Origin: a virus
Strand: one strand, 5' to 3'
Virus record (IMG/VR): IMGVR_UViG_3300025889_000888
Coordinates: 1-25,000 of that record
DNA length: 25,000 nt
The position numbers and the translations under genes are program-made. Below the pieces are notes generated by a model. That model saw only the letters and a program-made list of their open reading frames with translations. It had not been told where the DNA came from and searched no databases. This document shows positions 4,441-21,554 of this stretch, one piece after another (the first letter of the stretch is position 1; every line of letters begins with the position of its first letter).

Positions 4441-4770
4441 TTAATCCAATTTTAACGCTTCAATTTGTGTGAATTGATCCAATTGTGATTCAAATATTCC
4501 AGTCACACGGTATTCGCCGGTTTTACCTTCGATCGTTAACAAACGGTCAATTGAAATATATTCGTCCGCCGTCTTTTTACGCACAATAATTCTTATTTCC
4601 AATTGTCTTTGGCGTTTATACCCGTCAACTTCAACGTCGCCTTTCTTTTCAACTACCCGCCCCCATATTGTGGCCAAGGTTGATTTTATCGAAGTAGTCC
4701 CACCGTAACCGTCCGAAGTTTTGGTTAATTGTTTTATTGAAATGCGTTTGTTTAGGCGTCCGGAATCCAT
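4441..4770 (-). CDS. Head-tail adaptor / head closure protein (SPP1 gp16-like)
   Basis: This 109-residue beta-rich protein begins MDSGRLNKRISIKQLTK and contains DGYGG (about 20-24), WGRVVEKKGDVEVDG (about 36-50) and a central strand with IRIIVRKK. The pattern of GxLxxRIxIxxxxxxxDxxGG then tWaxvxxxxG is that of the phage head-tail joining family (SPP1 gp16, HK97 gp7 type), which plugs the portal after packaging. It shares one base with the upstream connector gene stop, and neighbours are in the expected order. Confidence 0.87.
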   Translation of the reverse strand: MDSGRLNKRISIKQLTKTSDGYGGTTSIKSTLATIWGRVVEKKGDVEVDGYKRQRQLEIRIIVRKKTADEYISIDRLLTIEGKTGEYRVTGIFESQLDQFTQIEALKLD

Positions 4771-5333
4771 TATATAAACATATTTTTATAAGACGATAAA
4801 ATTGTTTTTACGTTTGAAGGTACTTCGACAAAATTTACACCTTGCATAACGGAAAAATCCGCACGGTTGTCATAATACGTTGAAGTCAATTGTAAAATGG
4901 CCTGTATTAACAAACTGTCATTCATTCCGGCGGTTACATAGGTAACTTGTATTTCTTTTGCCGGTAATTGATTTAGTTCGATAATTTCATTATCAAGACC
5001 GCGACCGGTATAACTTGCCGTTGATCCTTCAACCGTTACGGTCGAAATAGATGCTACCGGCGCAAATGGTAAATTGATTCTTGTCGATGCAAATGGCAAA
5101 TAATAAGTGCGGTTTTTTGCGACAATATCTTTTCCAATATAGTTTTCGCACCAAATACGCGCTTGGGTTATCATTCGCCCAATGATTGTATCGTCGTCCG
5201 AAGTGTCAATTCTTGCAAAATCTTTTACGTCTGAAGTAGTCACGATTTCGCTTCCGGTCGTTGAATTAATTTTAACTTGACTATGAAAATCATTCGGTGG
5301 TTCGCTATAATATAAACTTTGATAGTAGGCCAT
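4770..5333 (-). CDS. Head-tail connector protein, gp6 / phage_connect family
   Basis: This 187-residue protein has the family's helix TTSDVKDFARIDTSDDDTII (about 32-51) followed by a second helix ARIWCENYIGKDI, a beta segment (LPFAPVASISTVTVEG) and a C-terminal helix QAILQLTSTYYDNR. The motif D-x-K-x-(F/H)-x-R-(I/V)-D-x-x-D-D-x-x-I is typical of HK97 gp6-like adaptors that form a ring under the portal. It overlaps the 70-aa gene upstream and the head-closure gene downstream by one base each, the usual order of connector genes. Confidence 0.88.
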   Translation of the reverse strand: MAYYQSLYYSEPPNDFHSQVKINSTTGSEIVTTSDVKDFARIDTSDDDTIIGRMITQARIWCENYIGKDIVAKNRTYYLPFASTRINLPFAPVASISTVTVEGSTASYTGRGLDNEIIELNQLPAKEIQVTYVTAGMNDSLLIQAILQLTSTYYDNRADFSVMQGVNFVEVPSNVKTILSSYKNMFI

Positions 5334-5545
5334 TATTTAGACTTTTTAGTTGTACGTTTTCTTGGCGCTTTTGCTTCTTTGGTTTCTTTAGCGGCCTTTT
5401 CTTCTTTGACCACCGGGGTTTCGTAAACAACGCCAATTCCCTTTTGTATATAATGACGACCAAGTTTATCGTCCAAATCGTGAATTTCGCCTTCTTTACG
5501 CCATCCGCCCTGACTAATAACGTCCTTTTTAATAAGTATTTTCAT
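5333..5545 (-). CDS. Small protein with basic Lys/Ala-rich tail before the connector
   Basis: This 70-residue protein has an N-terminal beta-like domain (MKILIKKDVISQGGWRKEGE, then a GRHYIQKGIGVVYE segment at about 29-43) and a disordered, highly charged C-terminus (about 46-70) rich in Lys, Glu and Ala ending RKRTTKKSK. Short proteins with a VxxxGxxxxxGxxxxxxxxxAxxLIxxGxA layout often sit between capsid and connector genes in HK97-like phages; function is not established. It is the first gene after a terminator and a TAnnTTTG box, so it probably starts the connector transcript. Confidence 0.75.
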   Translation of the reverse strand: MKILIKKDVISQGGWRKEGEIHDLDDKLGRHYIQKGIGVVYETPVVKEEKAAKETKEAKAPRKRTTKKSK

Positions 5546-5561
5546 AGGATTGTATTTAGTA

Positions 5562-5569
5562 CAAAGATA
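5562..5569 (-). promoter_or_regulatory. Candidate -7 box for the connector operon
   Basis: TATCTTTG on the minus strand is a full match to the TAnnTTTG box of Bacteroidota promoters. It overlaps the U-tract side of the terminator at 5569-5598 and sits 16 bases before the ATG at 5543-5545. No convincing TTTG -33 element is visible at the right distance, so the site is tentative. Confidence 0.4.
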
Positions 5570-5598
5570 AAAAAAAGCGCCGTAATGATTTACGACGC
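5569..5598 (-). terminator. Rho-independent terminator after the PD-(D/E)XK gene
   Basis: Minus-strand stem of 9 pairs (5590-5598 with 5577-5585, one G-U) with a 4-base loop, followed by eight U (5576-5569). It lies 38 bases beyond the stop of the nuclease gene and separates the island from the connector genes. Confidence 0.85.
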
Positions 5599-5635
5599 CC
5601 CATCGAACATAAAACTATTGAATGAAAGTAACCTT

Positions 5636-6010
5636 TTACAGATCAAAAGCAAAGTTATTAAAAAAATCTTTATGTTTTCCTACCGGCGACAAACGCACCG
5701 ATTGCATTTCGCCAATGTTTGGAAACACAAAAAAACCTTTGTAGTATTCAACCCACACGGCAAAGAAATCCACCTTGTCAATGCTATAATCACTTTTTGA
5801 ATTTTGAAGGCGACAATGGACGGTTGTGTGGTGTTTGTCCGGTAATTTAGTCGTCGATTTTATTTGCACACGAATAAGACGATCGCCGGTGTCAACAATA
5901 CAGTCATAAATTGAAGAATCCATTAATGGAAAAGAAACTTCGTGACCGTGGCGCATACATTCGACGGCAAACATATATTCAGCGACGCATCCGCGTTTGT
6001 TATTGTCCAC
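5636..6010 (-). CDS. PD-(D/E)XK family nuclease, stand-alone
   Basis: This 124-residue protein begins at GTG 6008-6010 (no in-frame ATG precedes it after the stop). KRGCVAEYMFAVEC (about 5-18) supplies the Glu11 of motif I, SIYDCIVD holds Asp36, and IRVQIKST holds Gln49 and Lys51. The G-x-x-A-E ... Y-D ... (E/Q)-x-K layout matches small PD-(D/E)XK endonucleases and Holliday-junction-resolvase-like proteins; Gln in place of Glu in the E-x-K motif is seen in relatives. It lies inside an accessory island bounded by terminators on both sides, between capsid and connector genes. Resolvase, restriction-like or defence-related roles are all possible. Confidence 0.75.
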   Translation of the reverse strand: MDNNKRGCVAEYMFAVECMRHGHEVSFPLMDSSIYDCIVDTGDRLIRVQIKSTTKLPDKHHTTVHCRLQNSKSDYSIDKVDFFAVWVEYYKGFFVFPNIGEMQSVRLSPVGKHKDFFNNFAFDL

Positions 6011-6058
6011 GTTTAATTCAATTTGTTGCTTTTTTTAATTTGGTTCATATAAAGTTAT

Positions 6059-6090
6059 AAAAAAAACGCCGAATAATTAAATCCGACGTT
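6059..6090 (-). terminator. Rho-independent terminator inside the accessory island
   Basis: Minus-strand stem of 9 pairs (6081-6089 with 6066-6074, two G-U) with a 6-base loop, followed by eight U (6066-6059). It ends the small-gene run after the 38-aa gene. The nuclease gene begins about 50 bases downstream and so needs read-through or its own promoter. Confidence 0.8.
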
Positions 6091-6115
6091 TTCTAACCAA
6101 GTGAATGAAAAAAAG

Positions 6116-6232
6116 CTATTTATTAGCTATCCGTTTTAGATAGTTGTCCCAATATACAATTTTTTTATAAGATTTGTCAATTCTTTTCATAGAATCTTCA
6201 AATGTGTCTTTGTTTTGTTTTTGTTTTTCCAT
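6116..6232 (-). CDS. Small charged protein (38 aa), unknown
   Basis: A short frame from ATG 6230-6232 to TAG 6116-6118. The product (MEKQKQNKDTFEDSMKRI...) is Lys-rich, helical and lacks hydrophobic segments. It begins two bases after the stop of the upstream 51-aa membrane protein gene and is followed by a strong terminator 26 bases on, which supports its being the last gene of a transcript. No family recognised. Confidence 0.5.
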   Translation of the reverse strand: MEKQKQNKDTFEDSMKRIDKSYKKIVYWDNYLKRIANK

Positions 6233-6234
6233 TT

Positions 6235-6390
6235 TTAGTGATTTTTAGAACGGTAAATTAAAAGTGAAAATAATAACATTAATATCGCGTCTATATGCGC
6301 CTCAAATTTATAAACTAATCTAAACGCCCATAGTATAAATAAAACTACAAGAAACGCCCGGACAATGCCTTGTATTTGTTCTTTTTCCAT
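6235..6390 (-). CDS. Small two-helix membrane protein (51 aa), unknown
   Basis: A frame from ATG 6388-6390 to TAA 6235-6237. The product begins MEKEQIQGIVRAFLVVLFIL and has two hydrophobic segments, about 10-27 and 34-46, separated by a polar turn (YKFEAHID), with a short basic end (YRSKNH). Its ATG shares a base with the TAA of the preceding small membrane protein (TAATG), so the two are probably translated together. Size and topology recall holins or superinfection-exclusion proteins, but no family is recognised. Confidence 0.6.
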   Translation of the reverse strand: MEKEQIQGIVRAFLVVLFILWAFRLVYKFEAHIDAILMLLFSLLIYRSKNH

Positions 6391-6527
6391 TATGTCCAAG
6401 CTAAAATTGAAATTGTTGTTGCGATTGCCAAGGCGACCAAAAAGGCCGCAACTTCTTTAAGTAGTGCTTTCATATTTTTACGGTTTTGTTTTTTAGTGAT
6501 TTTCTTTACTATATAATGATTTTTCAT
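6390..6527 (-). CDS. Tiny membrane protein with two possible starts (45 or 27 aa)
   Basis: The longest frame starts at ATG 6525-6527 and gives 45 residues. An internal in-frame ATG at 6471-6473 gives 27 residues (MKALLKEVAAFLVALAIATT...). The hydrophobic helix lies in the shared C-terminal part. The extra 18 residues of the long form are very basic (KKITKKQNRKN). The upstream ATG is preceded by AAATCAAACATT, like the leaders of the neighbouring genes, which favours it. The stop overlaps the next ATG (TAATG). Function is unknown. Confidence 0.5.
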   Translation of the reverse strand: MKNHYIVKKITKKQNRKNMKALLKEVAAFLVALAIATTISILAWT

Positions 6528-6537
6528 AATGTTTGAT

Positions 6538-6756
6538 TTAAAATACTGATTCGTTTTCGTATAAATTGTCTTCGATTTTATCGTGAATCCAATCGTTGTA
6601 AAATTCCATTGAAACTTCTTCGCCGTTTACCTCTACATAGTAAGGTTCAATTTCTAAATAAGAAGGCGTATCATAATCGCCACGATCATAATAAACTTTG
6701 TACTCAACTAAAATCGTGTAGTCGTTTCCTTTGAATGTGTAAGTGTTTGTTTCCAT
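6538..6756 (-). CDS. Small acidic protein (72 aa), unknown
   Basis: The product (METNTYTFKGNDYTILVEYK...) is rich in Tyr, Asp and Glu, with alternating beta-like segments in the first 50 residues and an acidic helical end. It has no membrane segment or known motif. It starts after the shared leader TTAAAAACAAAACATT and ends 10 bases before the next start. Small, strongly acidic early proteins of phages are often host-takeover or anti-defence factors (DNA mimics among them); that is only a possibility here. Confidence 0.7.
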   Translation of the reverse strand: METNTYTFKGNDYTILVEYKVYYDRGDYDTPSYLEIEPYYVEVNGEEVSMEFYNDWIHDKIEDNLYENESVF

Positions 6757-6768
6757 AATGTTTTGTTT

Positions 6769-6909
6769 TTAATCTAATAACATTTTTAATGCCTTTGGTC
6801 TATTGCCAACGATTTTTGCAATTTCATCGCGTGCGTCTAATGCGTGAGATGCTTCGCATTCAATAATTAATGATTTTGGGGAATTGTGAAAGTGTACTTT
6901 GAATTTCAT
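6769..6909 (-). CDS. Small protein (46 aa), first gene of the accessory island
   Basis: A frame from ATG 6907-6909 to TAA 6769-6771, directly behind the duplicated promoter and leader. The product begins MKFKVHFHNSPKSLIIECEA and continues with a DARDEIAKIVG helix. It looks like a small soluble alpha/beta protein; the strand-then-helix pattern with DA..EI recalls short phage proteins of unknown role. The stop lies 12 bases before the next ATG, within that gene's A-rich leader. Confidence 0.65.
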   Translation of the reverse strand: MKFKVHFHNSPKSLIIECEASHALDARDEIAKIVGNRPKALKMLLD

Positions 6910-6977
6910 AATGTTTTGTTTTTAATTATACCGCAATATATAAAAAATTATATATATACAACAAATTTTATATAAAA
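6907..6977 (-). promoter_or_regulatory. Promoter and leader copy 1 (accessory island)
   Basis: This stretch aligns with 21433-21503 at most positions with one small gap, including the leader TAATTAAAAACAAAACATTATG and the promoter region. On the minus strand TTTG (6962-6965) lies 21 bases before TATATTGC (6933-6940), a weak form of TAnnTTTG, so this copy may be less active than the other. It lies just after the capsid gene's terminator and begins the small-gene island. Confidence 0.6.
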
Positions 6978-6990
6978 TATTTTTTAAAAT

Positions 6991-7024
6991 AAAAAAAGGG
7001 GTAACCGTAAGGCCCCCCCCTTTA
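6991..7024 (-). terminator. Terminator after the major capsid gene
   Basis: Minus-strand hairpin AAAGGGG (7023-7017) pairing with CCCCTTT (7001-6995), with an inner GG/CC step, followed by a run of U to 6991. It lies 22 bases past the capsid stop and separates head genes from the island. Confidence 0.8.
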
Positions 7025-7045
7025 ATTACAAAACAACCGTTAGAA

Positions 7046-8251
7046 TTAAGCGGTTTCAAGTGCAGCTTTCGCGGTGCTAAATGTACCTTGAACAATTGCA
7101 TTTGGTGCGTAGTTTGTAAGCGCAACGCGTTCTTGAGCGCGTACAGTAACAAACCCGTCACGGAAGTTGGTGGAATCTTCGCGTGAAAATTCGATACCAA
7201 GACCGTCACGAATCCAAAGTTGTGTCGCCAATGACAAGTTTCCTACAAGGAATTTTCCGGCCGTTACGGCAGTTGAAAGTACAATTGGCACACCCATAAT
7301 TGCGGGTTGAACACCTTGGATAATTTGGTTTCTAAGGTATTCGTTCGCAGTTGACTTCAACAATACGATTTTGTGGAAATCGGTTGGGTTCAAAAGGATT
7401 GTATCCGCTTGGTAGTTAGACAAATTAAGTTGATTCAAAGCAACAGTCAAAACGTCAAATTCATTTGCGCTTTCGATTGCTAATGCAAATGATCCCGCAG
7501 AAAATGCCGCACCGTCAGTAAATAAACCGTCAAGATTTGGCGAAGAACCGTCACCGTTAAGGATTTCGTTGTCTTCGGCTGAAAGTACTTTTCCGGGTAC
7601 GCGTGCAGACAAATAAGAAGTAAGTTGTGGGGTATCCGCCAACATTTCTTCTGTCAAACGCATATAAGTACCGATTTTTTCAACATTTACGCTTGTTGCG
7701 GTAATGTCGAAATCACTTTGTCCAAGTGTTGAACCTTGGGCAGTTGCAGCCGCGTTGTCAGCATATCCGCTTTCTTTAGGGAAACGAATAGTTTGCGCGT
7801 CAGTTGAACCGATAGGCAATAAAGTACGAATGTGAGTACTTCTTGAAGGGTCAAACTTAATGTTTGGAACCACAGTTTCACCGGCAACAACACCCGTGTA
7901 ATCCGCGGCCATTGTCATATCCGCTTTTACTTCAAAACGTGCGGCGTTGCTATTTCCTTTAAGCATTGCATCAATAGAACCGTTTTTCAATGATTCTTCG
8001 ATTGCGGCTTTAAAAGATTTTGTAGTTGCGCCACTAAATGTTTTTTTAGACTCCATTTCGATCGCGTCCATTCTTTTTGTAGCCGCTTCGAATTTTTCGT
8101 TGTAAGAATTAGTCAAGTTGGAAATTTCGCTTTTCAAAGACGCTTCGATTTCGCCGTTGGCGTTATCTTTAGCCGCGTGAAACGCTTTTTCAATCTTTGA
8201 ATCTACAAGATCACCAATTTGATCCAATTGTTTTTTTAGATTTTCGTCCAT
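7046..8251 (-). CDS. Major capsid protein, HK97 fold
   Basis: This 401-residue protein has a charged coiled-coil N-terminus (about 1-75, the scaffold-like delta domain normally removed by the prohead protease), then the shell domain. The start of the shell, around VVAGETVVPNIKF (about 121-133), and later RVPGKVLSAEDNEILNGDGS (about 218-237) and the final VRAQERVALTNYAPNA fit the HK97 capsid family. It follows portal, Mu F-like and protease genes, starting 4 bases after the protease stop. The product would assemble the icosahedral head. Cleavage probably falls near residues 75-110, but the exact site cannot be read from sequence alone. Confidence 0.93.
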   Translation of the reverse strand: MDENLKKQLDQIGDLVDSKIEKAFHAAKDNANGEIEASLKSEISNLTNSYNEKFEAATKRMDAIEMESKKTFSGATTKSFKAAIEESLKNGSIDAMLKGNSNAARFEVKADMTMAADYTGVVAGETVVPNIKFDPSRSTHIRTLLPIGSTDAQTIRFPKESGYADNAAATAQGSTLGQSDFDITATSVNVEKIGTYMRLTEEMLADTPQLTSYLSARVPGKVLSAEDNEILNGDGSSPNLDGLFTDGAAFSAGSFALAIESANEFDVLTVALNQLNLSNYQADTILLNPTDFHKIVLLKSTANEYLRNQIIQGVQPAIMGVPIVLSTAVTAGKFLVGNLSLATQLWIRDGLGIEFSREDSTNFRDGFVTVRAQERVALTNYAPNAIVQGTFSTAKAALETA

Positions 8252-11984: not shown

Positions 11985-11992
11985 CAAAAATA
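11985..11992 (-). promoter_or_regulatory. TAnnTTTG box before the portal gene
   Basis: TATTTTTG on the minus strand lies 17 bases upstream of the portal ATG (11965-11967) in the short gap after the terminase stop. A -33 element is not convincing. Possibly an internal promoter; AT richness makes chance likely. Confidence 0.22.
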
Positions 11993-15579: not shown

Positions 15580-16353
15580 TTAGTCAAAGTTCACATTTTT
15601 TAGATCATTTCCAAATTTTAAATCAAAAAAATCAATGTATTTTATCCCTTCTTTGTTTCTTCGGCGCAATTTTAATATGGTCAAGAATTGGTTTTTCCAA
15701 AATTCGTCTTTGCGCGCCTTTTGACAAAGCAAAAAAACCTTTCTTGGGTGGTATTTATCCAAACGCCATAAATCGTCGATTAAAGTCACCCATTTACGTT
15801 TTTCGTGGGTTGTTTTTGGTCTTGTTTCCGGTGGAAATAATTCCACAATGGCGAAATAACTTTTTTGAACAAGTGCGTGAAAATCCTTAAAAGATTTTTC
15901 GGTTTTTGGATTTTCAGGAACGGAATTTGGATTTTCAGGAATGTAATTTAATTTATTATTTATATTATTATTATTATATATATTATATATATTATTATCC
16001 GGGACATTTTTGTCCCCACCTATGGACAATTTTGTCCCTACCCCCCGGACAATTTTGTCCCCACCTACAAGGGTCAATTTTATAAGTCTTTGTTCAACTT
16101 CTTTGGTGTCTTTTTTATAGGTGTATTTGATTTCGATAAATCCAAGGGTTTCAAGTTGTTTTATCCAACGTGATATTGATTTATTTGACACGGCGTATAA
16201 TTTGGCAAAATAAGCGTTGGACGCAAAACAATATCCCTTTTCGTTAGTTAGTGCGGTTATTTCCGCAAACAATAATTTTGCGTTTGGCGTAAGTTCTAAA
16301 TGATAACGAACATTTGCCGGAAGAATTGCGTAATAGTTTTTTTGTTGTTTCAT
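15580..16353 (-). CDS. Replication initiator-like protein with winged helix-turn-helix
   Basis: This 257-residue protein has an N-terminal winged helix: LTPNAKLLFAEITALTNEKG (about 21-40), a recognition region YAVSNKSISRWIKQLETLG (about 53-71) and a wing FIEIKYTY. This is the HTH_36 / replisome-organiser type. A low-complexity linker (about 112-150, Asn- and Ile-rich, with PENP repeats) separates it from a helical C-terminus (about 155-257) that may contact the helicase. The linker is encoded by DNA that looks like a replication origin, as in lambda O. Its ATG overlaps the methyltransferase stop (ATGA) and the primase-helicase gene follows. Confidence 0.8.
   Translation of the reverse strand: MKQQKNYYAILPANVRYHLELTPNAKLLFAEITALTNEKGYCFASNAYFAKLYAVSNKSISRWIKQLETLGFIEIKYTYKKDTKEVEQRLIKLTLVGGDKIVRGVGTKLSIGGDKNVPDNNIYNIYNNNNINNKLNYIPENPNSVPENPKTEKSFKDFHALVQKSYFAIVELFPPETRPKTTHEKRKWVTLIDDLWRLDKYHPRKVFLLCQKARKDEFWKNQFLTILKLRRRNKEGIKYIDFFDLKFGNDLKNVNFD
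15905..15941. repeat. 21-bp-spaced direct repeat beside the A/T tract
   Basis: TTTGGATTTTCAGGAA occurs at 15905-15920 and again at 15926-15941, identical over 16 bp. It flanks the A/T-only tract on the side opposite the palindromic iterons and codes PENP twice. It may be part of the origin. Confidence 0.75.
15944..15998. other. Candidate DNA unwinding element, 55 bp of A/T only
   Basis: An unbroken run of 55 A/T bases lies inside the initiator gene between two sets of direct repeats. Such tracts next to iterons are the site of strand opening in phage and plasmid origins. The protein code here is only a run of Asn, Ile and Tyr, so coding constraint is weak. Origin function is inferred. Confidence 0.6.
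16001..16085. repeat. Palindromic iterons, candidate origin (initiator binding sites)
   Basis: GGACAATTTTGTCC, a near-perfect palindrome, is present at 16024-16037 and 16047-16060, with a variant GGACATTTTTGTCC at 16002-16015. A decayed half-copy (GGTCAATTTT) begins at 16072. Spacings are 22, 23 and 25 bases, about two helical turns, so proteins would bind on one face. Each full copy is followed by CCCCACC or CCCTACC. Location within the initiator gene next to an A/T-only tract fits a lambda-type origin. Confidence 0.75.
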
Positions 16354-16997
16354 TTTTTTACAGACGATAATATTTCAAAACACAATTCTTCGGGGATTTT
16401 ACTACGTTCATAGTTTCCTTTTAAGCCTTGGGTTCCGGTTTTACTTCCGCGTGGCGCTTCTTCGTGATGACATTTTAAGTTGCCATTAAAACATTTTTTT
16501 CGCGGTTTCCAACCGTATTCATTAAATAAATTTTGCAAGTTGTTTGTCCAAATATCCGTAGGTTTTGCACGGTGGTCGTTATACTGACAATACCAAACCG
16601 TCGCACGATCTAAACCGCGAACAACGTCTAATTTTCGCAATTTTCCGCGCGGATTTTCAATAAAATAAACAAGTTCGCCGTTTAATTTTAAAAAGTGTTT
16701 TATTATATTAATAGTTGCTTCAACGTATTTAACGCCAGTCATTGCGTTTTTTGATTTTGGCGTGTGATCTTTGTTCCAATGGGTTCCAATTGATGCAACA
16801 GAAAAATAAGTACAAGGTGGCGACGCCCAAATTATATCCGGAATAAAAGGCACATTTGAAACGTCAAAATTTAAAATATCAACAACGTAGTTAATGCCTT
16901 CAAAATTATTTACATCACTACTAAAAACATTGTAATTTAATTTTTCAGCAACCTTTCCAATTGACCTACTTCCGGCAAATAATTCCAAAACGTTCAT
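16350..16997 (-). CDS. C5-type DNA cytosine methyltransferase-like protein
   Basis: This 215-residue protein has the SAM-binding motif VLELFAGSRSIG (3-14), the second acidic motif FSSDVN (25-30), the catalytic PPC motif ASPPCTYFS (58-66, Cys62) and ENPRGKLR (114-121) where most C5 enzymes have ENV. It would methylate cytosine in phage DNA, perhaps to escape host restriction; no partner restriction gene is present. It is short for the family, so the target-recognition part is small. The stop overlaps the initiator start. It may act without sequence specificity or on another base position; the enzyme class is more certain than the product. Confidence 0.82.
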   Translation of the reverse strand: MNVLELFAGSRSIGKVAEKLNYNVFSSDVNNFEGINYVVDILNFDVSNVPFIPDIIWASPPCTYFSVASIGTHWNKDHTPKSKNAMTGVKYVEATINIIKHFLKLNGELVYFIENPRGKLRKLDVVRGLDRATVWYCQYNDHRAKPTDIWTNNLQNLFNEYGWKPRKKCFNGNLKCHHEEAPRGSKTGTQGLKGNYERSKIPEELCFEILSSVKK

Positions 16998-17017
16998 CTT
17001 AAAAGTGTTTCATAAGA

Positions 17018-17063
17018 AAACCCCGACTTGTTGGTGGTAAGGGACACCGCAAAACCGGGGTTT
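17018..17063 (-). other. Large imperfect hairpin upstream of the methyltransferase gene
   Basis: AAACCCCG (17018-17025) can pair with CGGGGTTT (17056-17063), and GGTG (17033-17036) with CACC (17045-17048) inside. The last arm on the minus strand is followed by TTTTCTTATG, a poor U-tract, so it may be a weak terminator, attenuator or RNA element. The rest of the gap 16998-17138 holds no convincing gene. Confidence 0.45.
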
Positions 17064-17138
17064 CTACTAAAAACAAAACAATTCTTTTGTCGCCCTTACA
17101 CAACATTTGCAAATATATGATTTTTAATTCTTTAGTCT

Positions 17139-19477: not shown

Positions 19478-19487
19478 AGCGGTAAAT

Positions 19488-19516
19488 ATAAAAGGGGGAC
19501 AATAATGCCCCCCGGT
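19488..19516 (-). terminator. Terminator after the ParB-like gene
   Basis: Minus-strand GGGGG (19513-19509) pairs with CCCCC (19498-19494) around a CATTATTG loop stem, followed by TTTTATATTT. It lies 6 bases beyond the ParB-like stop and before the coiled-coil gene. Confidence 0.75.
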
Positions 19517-19521
19517 GGTTG

Positions 19522-20229: not shown

Positions 20230-20243
20230 AGTTTTGAATTTAT

Positions 20244-20264
20244 GGGCGACCCGAAAGCCGCCCG
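20244..20264 (-). terminator. Hairpin after the SSB-like gene
   Basis: GGGCG (20244-20248) pairs with CGCCC (20259-20263) 7 bases past the SSB-like stop. On the minus strand it is followed by ATAAATTC rather than a U-run, so it would be a weak terminator or 3'-end stabiliser. Confidence 0.45.
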
Positions 20265-20270
20265 TGGTTA

Positions 20271-20592: not shown

Positions 20593-21075
20593 TTAAATAT
20601 TAAATTTTTGAATAATTTGTTCTTTGTACTTCGTATCTATTTCAAAGCGCCGAAGTACACTTTGCGCTTGTTCTTTAGTACCTTGTAAGGTTGCTTTAAG
20701 TTGTGATTCAGTTAATTTAGGAAGGTTTTGTTTAGCAATGGCCATTTCGACTTCGTCCGCCGAACCAATTGACGTGTCAATACCAATACCTAAAAATCCA
20801 AGTGCGCGACCAACGGCCGACGTTTCGCAATTTTCAATGTGACTTGTTTTATTGATATAAGACGAAGTTTGGTCTTCCATAGCCGTACCGGTTGACAAAA
20901 TAGCGCCTTCCGGGTTCGTTATTGTTGCTTTCATAATAACAACCGAATAGTCGTCATTATGTGATATTATTTCGGTATTTACGCCGTAATTTTCAAATTG
21001 TGGGTTCGATCTAAAATGCTTAACCCGTTCATTGACTTCAATGTAGTCTTTGCCTTTGATTTTGGTTACTTTCAT
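20593..21075 (-). CDS. Single-strand annealing protein (ERF/Sak-like)
   Basis: This 160-residue protein has a central block DQTSSYINKTSHIENCETSAVGRALGFLGIG (residues about 67-97) followed by SADEVEMAIAK, typical of phage recombinases of the ERF/Rad52-like group, which carry xINKxSxxExxETSAxGRALxxLGIG. With the exonuclease at 18496-19245 and the SSB-like protein it forms a recombination set that repairs and circularises DNA. Its ATG overlaps the HTH gene stop by 4 bases. It is short, with a helical C-terminus, for the family. Confidence 0.85.
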   Translation of the reverse strand: MKVTKIKGKDYIEVNERVKHFRSNPQFENYGVNTEIISHNDDYSVVIMKATITNPEGAILSTGTAMEDQTSSYINKTSHIENCETSAVGRALGFLGIGIDTSIGSADEVEMAIAKQNLPKLTESQLKATLQGTKEQAQSVLRRFEIDTKYKEQIIQKFNI

Positions 21076-21266
21076 AGTTCTAAAATATTAATGTTGAATT
21101 TCGATTTAATTTTTTCCGCTTCGGCGATCGTGAACGTTTTTGGGTTGTTTAAACGACGGTCAAGCGTCATTTGGTGAACGCCCAAACATTCGTAAACATC
21201 TTTTTTCTTGATGCCTTTGTCAATTAGCGCTTTTTTAAATTTTTCTTTGAATTGCGTCATAGTCAT
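21072..21266 (-). CDS. Small HTH DNA-binding protein (Cro/C1 type)
   Basis: This 64-residue protein is one helix-turn-helix: FKKALIDKGIKKKDVYECLG (about 10-29), then VHQMTLDRRLNNPKTFTIAEAEKI (30-53), with the V-x-x-x-T-L-x-R-R-L recognition helix. It can start at ATG 21264-21266 or two codons later. It overlaps the annealing gene (ATGA), and a strong hairpin precedes it, so expression depends on read-through from the promoter at 21460. It may regulate that promoter. It is not a full CI repressor (no dimerisation domain). Confidence 0.82.
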   Translation of the reverse strand: MTMTQFKEKFKKALIDKGIKKKDVYECLGVHQMTLDRRLNNPKTFTIAEAEKIKSKFNINILEL

Positions 21267-21267
21267 A

Positions 21268-21296
21268 TATAAAGGGGGCCGTGGCCCCCGGTTTTT
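21268..21296. terminator. Strong hairpin between leader gene and HTH gene, possibly bidirectional
   Basis: GGGGGCC (21274-21280) pairs perfectly with GGCCCCC (21283-21289). On the minus strand it is followed by TTTATATAT, and on the plus strand by GGTTTTTATT. It lies between the 45-aa gene and the HTH gene, so it could attenuate the early transcript. Confidence 0.7.
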
Positions 21297-21297
21297 A

Positions 21298-21435
21298 TTA
21301 TTTAAACAAAATACCCATAAGGATTAATTTATTAACGTTAAGGGATGCTTTTGTTGGATTTCCGTAGCTTCTACTGTAATAGGTAATTAAGTTTGCTCTT
21401 AAATTGATTTTTTGATTAATTGTTAATGTGTTCAT
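21298..21435 (-). CDS. Small leader protein (45 aa) of the early operon
   Basis: A frame from ATG 21433-21435 to TAA 21298-21300, directly behind the strongest promoter candidate of the window and its A-rich leader. The product (MNTLTINQKINLRANLITYY...) is basic and mixed in structure, ending in a short hydrophobic stretch (KLILMGILFK). The stop is immediately followed by a hairpin. No family recognised; a role in host takeover or regulation is open. Confidence 0.6.
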   Translation of the reverse strand: MNTLTINQKINLRANLITYYSRSYGNPTKASLNVNKLILMGILFK

Positions 21436-21503
21436 AATGTTTCGTTTTTAATTATATCCCAAATATAACAAAAATTATATATACCAAACAAATATTATAT
21501 AAA
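21433..21503 (-). promoter_or_regulatory. Promoter and leader copy 2 (early operon)
   Basis: The minus strand has TATATTTG (21460-21467), a full match to TAnnTTTG, with TTTG at 21485-21488 (spacing 17) and 21489-21492 (spacing 21). The transcript would start near 21453 and give an 18-base leader before the ATG at 21435. The whole stretch is matched by 6907-6977, copy 1. This copy has the better -7 box. Confidence 0.7.
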
Positions 21504-21554
21504 AAAAATTAAAAAAAAGTGAAAAAAAATTTTTACCGGGTGACATATATACAC

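Follow-up and report, generated by a model that had tools for sequence, protein, structure and literature searches.

Exchangeable small genes between the capsid and connector genes of a phage probably occupy one of two co-regulated early-type slots

Background

Why should a phage interrupt its head genes with a string of tiny genes that carry a promoter of their own? The window analysed here, that is, the whole 25,000-base stretch of a virus record, has its main phage genes on the minus strand, where they are transcribed in the order tail proteins, early region, terminase, portal, protease, capsid, island, connector, and finally lysis and fibre genes. The early region contains a small gene, an HTH gene, genes for an ERF-like annealing protein and for SSB-like, ParB-like and exonuclease-like proteins, and replication genes; several of the gene names used for the window reflect resemblance and gene order only. 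An earlier note on this DNA had described the stretch between capsid and connector as an accessory island driven by a copy of the early promoter, which could be expressed early and apart from its late neighbours. We ask here how much of this description survives a comparison with relatives, and what kind of locus the island may be.

The capsid protein as bait retrieved 80 viral loci, a second capsid bait gave 31 matches, and early loci were read from the relatives' contigs in pieces. The ERF protein, used as bait for further early loci, retrieved mostly other phages. Megablast of the window against known phage genomes gave no match, the matching capsids of isolates are all less than 60% identical to the window capsid, and no integrase, repressor system or lysogeny genes were recognised in the 25,000-base window, which is part of an incomplete genome. 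The family consists of uncultured phages, probably of Bacteroidota. A search of species genomes returned a single capsid relative, L263 (PBPJ01000031.1, capsid 54% identical), on a contig that is probably a misplaced phage contig; since it is binned in a Woesearchaeota MAG, and thus as archaeal, it gives no host information.

Architecture of the island

The layout set out in the earlier note, with a terminator, a promoter, five tiny genes, a second terminator, a nuclease and a third terminator between capsid and connector, was recovered almost to the base (Table 1). In order, the five tiny ORFs encode proteins of 46, 72, 45, 51 and 38 aa. We refer to the island as slot B and to the corresponding part of the early region as slot A.

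Table 1. Features of the island (slot B), its flanks and the early slot (slot A) in the window
Feature	Position	Strand	Basis
Early promoter and leader (slot A), paralogue of the island promoter	21431..21504	-	sequence match
Slot A cargo gene, 45 aa, homologue of the first island gene of L018/L021	21298..21435	-	
GC hairpin separating the slot A cargo gene from the HTH gene	21267..21297	-	
HTH protein (PF13443), candidate regulator of both promoters	21072..21266	-	
Major capsid protein (MCP), left flank	7046..8251	-	PF05065, E 3e-36
T1, terminator-like hairpin and T run 3' of the capsid gene	~6991..7027	-	sequence; relatives
Slot B promoter and A-rich leader	6905..6977	-	match to 21431-21504
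Cargo gene 1, 46 aa, orphan	6769..6909	-	92-aa gene instead in L004
Leader repeat, family D3, copies one and two	6903..6924; 6750..6771	-	repeat search
Cargo gene 2, 72 aa, very acidic	6538..6756	-	modelled beta-beta-beta-alpha
Fixed block, basic 45-aa protein, single hydrophobic segment	6390..6527	-	cluster 1, 42 proteins
Fixed block, 51-aa hydrophobic, probably membrane protein	6235..6390	-	cluster 0, 43 proteins
Fixed block, 38-aa basic soluble protein	6116..6232	-	cluster 2, 38 proteins
T2, terminator-like hairpin 5' of the nuclease	~6059..6090	-	sequence; relatives
PD-(D/E)XK nuclease, 124 aa, GTG start	5636..6010	-	PF11645, E 3e-13
T3, terminator-like hairpin	5574..5601	-	scan; relatives
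-7 box TATCTTTG, putative connector-gene promoter	5562..5569	-	kept in 67/67 relatives
70-aa gene, right island flank	5333..5545	-	ORF
Head-tail connector, right flank	4770..5333	-	PF05135

Generic scans for sigma-70 promoters and for terminators gave no excess over shuffles in the AT-rich DNA of the window, and the case for these elements therefore rests on conservation. Hairpins like T1 occur in 46 of 75 relatives, those like T2 in 54 of 75, and those like T3 in 64 of 67, and a TAnnTTTG -7 box lies 5' of the 70-aa gene in every one of 67 relatives, against 13.2 expected from shuffles. The gaps before the portal, protease, 70-aa and fibre genes each contain such a -7-like box and no TTTG at the matching distance. 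The four boxes stand at 11992, 8960, 5569 and 1726, respectively, and are candidates for a late promoter class. Conservation thus supports a slot B that would be fenced in by terminators, after which transcription of the connector genes would restart from a promoter of another, -7-only kind. Because of this arrangement we read slot B as early and separate from the structural genes, the island being probably shielded from late transcription.

Conservation of the frame and nature of the nuclease

The nuclease lies between capsid and connector in 75 of the 77 loci for which both flanks are available, some of which are near-copies of one another, and this position is kept down to capsid identities of about 50-60%. 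Small membrane-type genes are likewise present in the islands of most relatives. A recent one-off insertion of the island was rejected, because nearly all of these relatives carry the frame. The island can thus be called accessory as regards the cargo next to its promoter, and the term does not suit the frame, which nearly all relatives have; gene order, whose fixation in all relatives the earlier note would have taken as evidence against its reading, is indeed fixed for the frame but not for the cargo. The two loci without the nuclease are L066 and L192. In the first of these, a terminator and a -7-like box lead directly from the capsid to the 70-aa gene, and since L066 nests within a supported clade of carriers (100/99), loss of the island is the more likely explanation there, unless the capsid gene was acquired.

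The nuclease matches PF11645 with 50.3 bits (curated cut-off 26.1), and its best solved relative is I-Ssp6803I (2OST), both in sequence (E 1e-4) and in the Foldseek comparison of folds (E 4e-8, TM 0.77), where archaeal Hjc resolvases follow. Residues E11, D36, Q49 and K51, which we take to be those of the active site from their roles in I-Ssp6803I, are invariant in 76 of 76 nucleases and stand in the same register as in that enzyme. As starts were placed, 63 of the 76 genes begin with TTG or GTG, which suggests that translation is kept low. Pairwise nuclease distances correlate with those of the capsid and the connector (0.69 and 0.68, compared with 0.76 between capsid and connector). Neither the intron location nor the patchy distribution of a homing endonuclease was found, and a group I intron around the gene was rejected, there being no Rfam match in the window. 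Judged from these comparisons, the nuclease looks like a separate, mainly vertically inherited unit, which is probably not part of the early unit, and we interpret it as a fixed gene of the phage that may be expressed weakly, rather than as a selfish element. Our guess is that it resolves or debranches DNA before packaging; a part in the exchange of cargo is possible.

Two promoters that vary together

The proposal that the island promoter is a relative of the early promoter is borne out by an identity of 86% over 74 nt (E 5e-19), and the stretches 6905-6977 and 21431-21504 have no other counterpart anywhere in the window. Their local alignment score is 87. Shuffling the early region 5000 times with dinucleotides preserved gave scores of up to 55, alignments elsewhere in the window reach no more than 34, and other promoter-like gaps in the same phage score 14-21. 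The core promoters without the leader still score 56 (shuffle maximum 47). Base composition alone was rejected as the source of the likeness, none of the 5000 shuffles being as good. Read by sequence, the island promoter has TTTG at 6965-6962, a 21-nt spacer and TATATTG at 6940-6934, and the early promoter has TTTG at 21492-21489, a 21-nt spacer and TATATTTG at 21467-21460, a layout that in both we take to be the Bacteroidota -33/-7 type. The two stretches are alike well past these boxes.

Among the relatives, the two core promoters of one genome resemble each other more closely than those of different genomes do (permutation p = 5e-5 for 13 genomes, which are not independent and whose core sequences were cut by eye); eight representatives give the same result, and with the leaders included p is 3e-4. 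G014 and G020 do not show this pairing, and G002, G009 and G011 show it only weakly. The palindrome TTTGGAAWTTCCAAA of G016 spans the -33 box at each of the two loci, where it is kept despite divergent flanks, and it is found nowhere else in the 23-kb contig. The same palindrome lies about 105 nt past the capsid end in nine loci. G011 and G013, which are related to G016, have another spacer at both loci. The simplest cause of this pairing would be one regulator that acts on both promoters, although gene conversion would also explain it. A candidate for such a regulator is the HTH protein of Table 1, whose gene lies 3' of the early slot in the relatives read. The two promoters lie 14.5 kb from each other and stay matched while lineages diverge, which makes them a testable case. 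Given the kinship of the promoters, their pairing within genomes and the conserved fencing, the best reading is that slot B would be transcribed early, apart from its late neighbours.

In the early locus of G016 (L260), the HTH gene reads into the ERF-like gene as a single ORF. The phage with this fused ORF has a different operator-like palindrome at both promoters.

Turnover of the cargo and its presence in two slots

Clustering of the island ORFs separates a largely fixed block before the nuclease from a variable set of 0-3 genes right behind the promoter. The fixed block comprises a protein with a hydrophobic segment (cluster 1, 6, 7 or 21), the hydrophobic cluster 0 and the soluble cluster 2/3. 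The cargo, on the other hand, differs in 17 of 31 locus pairs, which are not independent and were compared over up to 6 kb on either side, even though their capsid genes are 97-99.95% identical. In most of the pairs listed, the sole unaligned stretch of at least 60 nt starts either 130-200 nt past the end of the capsid gene or else at the second gene of the cargo; a few show one or two further gaps. The comparison of L004 with the window is an example: identity is 99.7% until the leader, an unrelated 92-aa gene then replaces the 46-aa gene, and identity resumes at the next copy of the leader, TTAAAAACAAAACATTATG, so that 6750-6771 marks where the swapped segment ends on its 3' side. In other cases the swap begins near a start codon and often ends just 5' of a GC hairpin, and the swapped segments end well short of the nuclease. 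The breakpoints thus fall at leaders and hairpins.

GC hairpins stand 3' of many early genes and are nearly the same within a phage, differing between lineages. Examples of their sequences are GGGGGCAGAAATGCCCCC and GGGAGCCGAAAGGCTCCC. Such hairpins were seen in the early slots of L278 and L272, in the island of L174 and, in the window, at 21267-21297, 20230-20270 and 19478-19521.

The early locus of the relatives consists of a terminator, a promoter, variable small genes, often a hairpin, the HTH gene and recombination genes. When all island ORFs were compared with the relatives' contigs, matches outside the island occurred solely 3' of the tail gene, behind the early promoter. Seven cargo families are found in both slots, with amino acid identities of 35-100%: clusters 13 (35-37%), 18 (61%), 19, 23 (66%), 25 (100%), 34 (43%) and 56 (79%). 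In cluster 19, the early cargo gene of the window itself is 46% identical over 37 aa (E 6e-7) to the first island gene of L018/L021, and an early gene of L278 is 95.6% identical to an island gene of L021. In cluster 25, the match includes leader, gene and hairpin, with 94.8% identity over 387 nt between the island of G006 and the early slot of G008. Most cargo families were seen in one slot only. In clustering only, a slot gene of L044 was also weakly related to a G003 gene that lies farther along the early operon.

A two-slot model and its alternatives

We propose that this phage family has two early-type slots and that the island is one of them, slot A running from 21504 downwards, 3' of the tail genes, and slot B from 6977 downwards. 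Each slot would consist of a promoter, a leader, a few small genes that can be exchanged and have leader repeats or GC hairpins at their borders, and a fixed block, made up in slot A of the HTH and recombination genes and in slot B of two small membrane-type proteins and one small soluble protein. Both promoters would probably be controlled by one phage factor, most likely the HTH protein, and cargo would be swapped between phages, and over time between the slots, through recombination wherever promoter, leader and hairpin sequences are repeated, for which the phage's own ERF-like annealing protein and exonuclease are plausible agents. As a whole, this model of co-regulated early slots that share one pool of small genes is probably correct in our judgement. 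A stronger version, in which paired docking sites, co-evolving promoters and lineage-specific boundaries form a dedicated cassette-exchange system that trades early counter-host genes between genomes and slots, with the annealing recombinase and perhaps the nuclease as drivers, strikes us as unlikely.

The likeness of the two promoters within a genome could also have arisen through gene conversion between duplicates, with no shared regulator and with co-regulation merely incidental. The near-identity of the G006 island and the G008 early slot implies that sequence moves between slots, and the likeness of the window pair well beyond the promoter boxes is what conversion would produce. However, the two loci of G011 and G013 are distinct from each other while each is nearly the same in both phages, so that conversion would not be constant, and the G016 palindrome has been retained at both loci amid divergent flanks; we therefore consider conversion a rather unlikely account of the pairing. 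If both promoters were instead strong host-type -33/-7 promoters, slot B would be constitutive or late, and its genes might be small, fast-evolving helpers of assembly or lysis. The arrangement TTTG-N21-TATATTTG is the host layout, and the positions of the fixed block and the nuclease are as conserved as those of the structural genes. Yet the likeness spans the spacer and the leader and lies above all shuffles, other promoter-like gaps of the phage do not come near it, the pairing is specific to each genome, and the cargo is common to the early slot, all of which makes this alternative improbable.

One may also build an explanation on the nuclease, since it shares family, active site and fold with a homing endonuclease, I-Ssp6803I, and since SegB, a homing endonuclease of T6, drives the amplification of anti-defence loci (PMC13096335). 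The island nuclease, however, occupies the same place in almost all loci and has never lost its catalytic residues, its distances track those of capsid and connector, it has its own terminators, and the swaps stop well short of it. We regard an explanation of this kind as very unlikely, and retain the two co-regulated slots as the preferred model.

Relation to known systems

The acr-aca operons of Pseudomonas phages such as JBD30 are placed among the head genes. In JBD30, the anti-CRISPR protein AcrF1 is gp35 (PMC11445458). The island resembles these operons in its small variable genes, which have their own promoter in the structural region and which we read as early counter-host genes, and in the presence of an HTH regulator in the phage. 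Unlike them, it has no HTH gene of its own, the HTH gene sitting in the early operon; moreover, no Acr or defence family is recognised, a second slot shares the cargo, and the island also contains a fixed nuclease and membrane-type genes. In lambdoid and other phages, morons are extra genes with their own promoter and terminator that lie between conserved genes, and short conserved sequences mark the edges of swaps. The island likewise has its own promoter and terminator and short conserved sequences at the edges of swaps (for the terms moron and boundary sequence, see PMC3029335). Presence in one phage and absence from the same place in close relatives holds for its cargo and not for its frame, which is kept in 75 of 77 loci. 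The island differs from morons in that the slot is nearly always occupied, that its promoter, a paralogue of the early one, varies jointly with it, and that its cargo is common to two slots.

In cluster K mycobacteriophages, SAS and ESAS sequences are attached to numerous genes, and their conservation follows the gene families (PMC3203893). The repeats described here similarly stand directly 5' of start codons, some with inverted repeats, and are lineage-specific, but they delimit exchangeable genes at two loci. The hotspots of antiviral systems in P2 and P4 (PMC9122126) also combine a fixed address with variable cargo; here, however, we see single small early-type genes, two slots and paired promoters, with no recognised lysogeny genes in the window. 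The nuclease resembles I-Ssp6803I (PF11645) in sequence family, fold and the four residues named above, and differs in that it is not in an intron but belongs, as a fixed gene, to the structural region of the phage, where most copies start with TTG or GTG. The acr loci, morons, SAS/ESAS sequences and P2/P4 hotspots each share some features with the island. Its most striking aspect, two probably co-regulated slots with a shared pool, goes beyond what the earlier note described; no description of a two-slot or paired-slot arrangement was found in the literature searched, which lay mostly outside subscription journals.

Possible functions of the cargo

The five small proteins of the window have nothing significant in Pfam, PHROGs, PADLOC or NCBIfam, and the cargo matches no Acr or known anti-defence family. 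The 72-aa protein (pI 4.1, charge about -14) is modelled fairly confidently as beta-beta-beta-alpha, a fold with no significant match in PDB or BFVD, so that a role as a DNA mimic would be a guess from its charge only. Across the relatives the cargo is almost all orphan, the named exceptions coming from one distant relative, L183. Its 4.4-kb island (capsid end 4431 to nuclease 8837) encodes ThyA, MazG-type and dNTP-diphosphohydrolase-like proteins, which are kinds of genes that are usually expressed early. These genes, the rapid turnover of the cargo and its connection with the early slot make early counter-host functions the best guess, and most likely the cargo acts early on the host, in anti-defence, exclusion or takeover. 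We attach no meaning to a Cas10-like PADLOC match (E 0.0017) that came from the pooled relatives.

The two slots are a predictable address, at which small early-type genes that turn over rapidly can be read off from any phage of the family as a pair of short lists, and hence a good hunting ground for new genes that act against the host. Approaches based on such addresses have yielded anti-CRISPR and other counter-defence genes, and the phages of Bacteroidota are poorly covered. The slots also make it possible to test whether promoters, leaders and hairpins serve as boundaries of gene exchange.

Other features of the window

In a 141-nt gap at 16998-17138, before the gene at 16350-16997, GC-rich inverted repeats accompany a TATATTTG box at 17117; the gap has no match in Rfam. 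Within the gene of an HTH replication-type protein (15580-16353), three direct repeats of 22-24 nt at 15999-16067 each contain the palindrome GGACAAWWTTGTCC, or a version with one mismatch. These repeats are iteron-like and possibly mark a replication origin.
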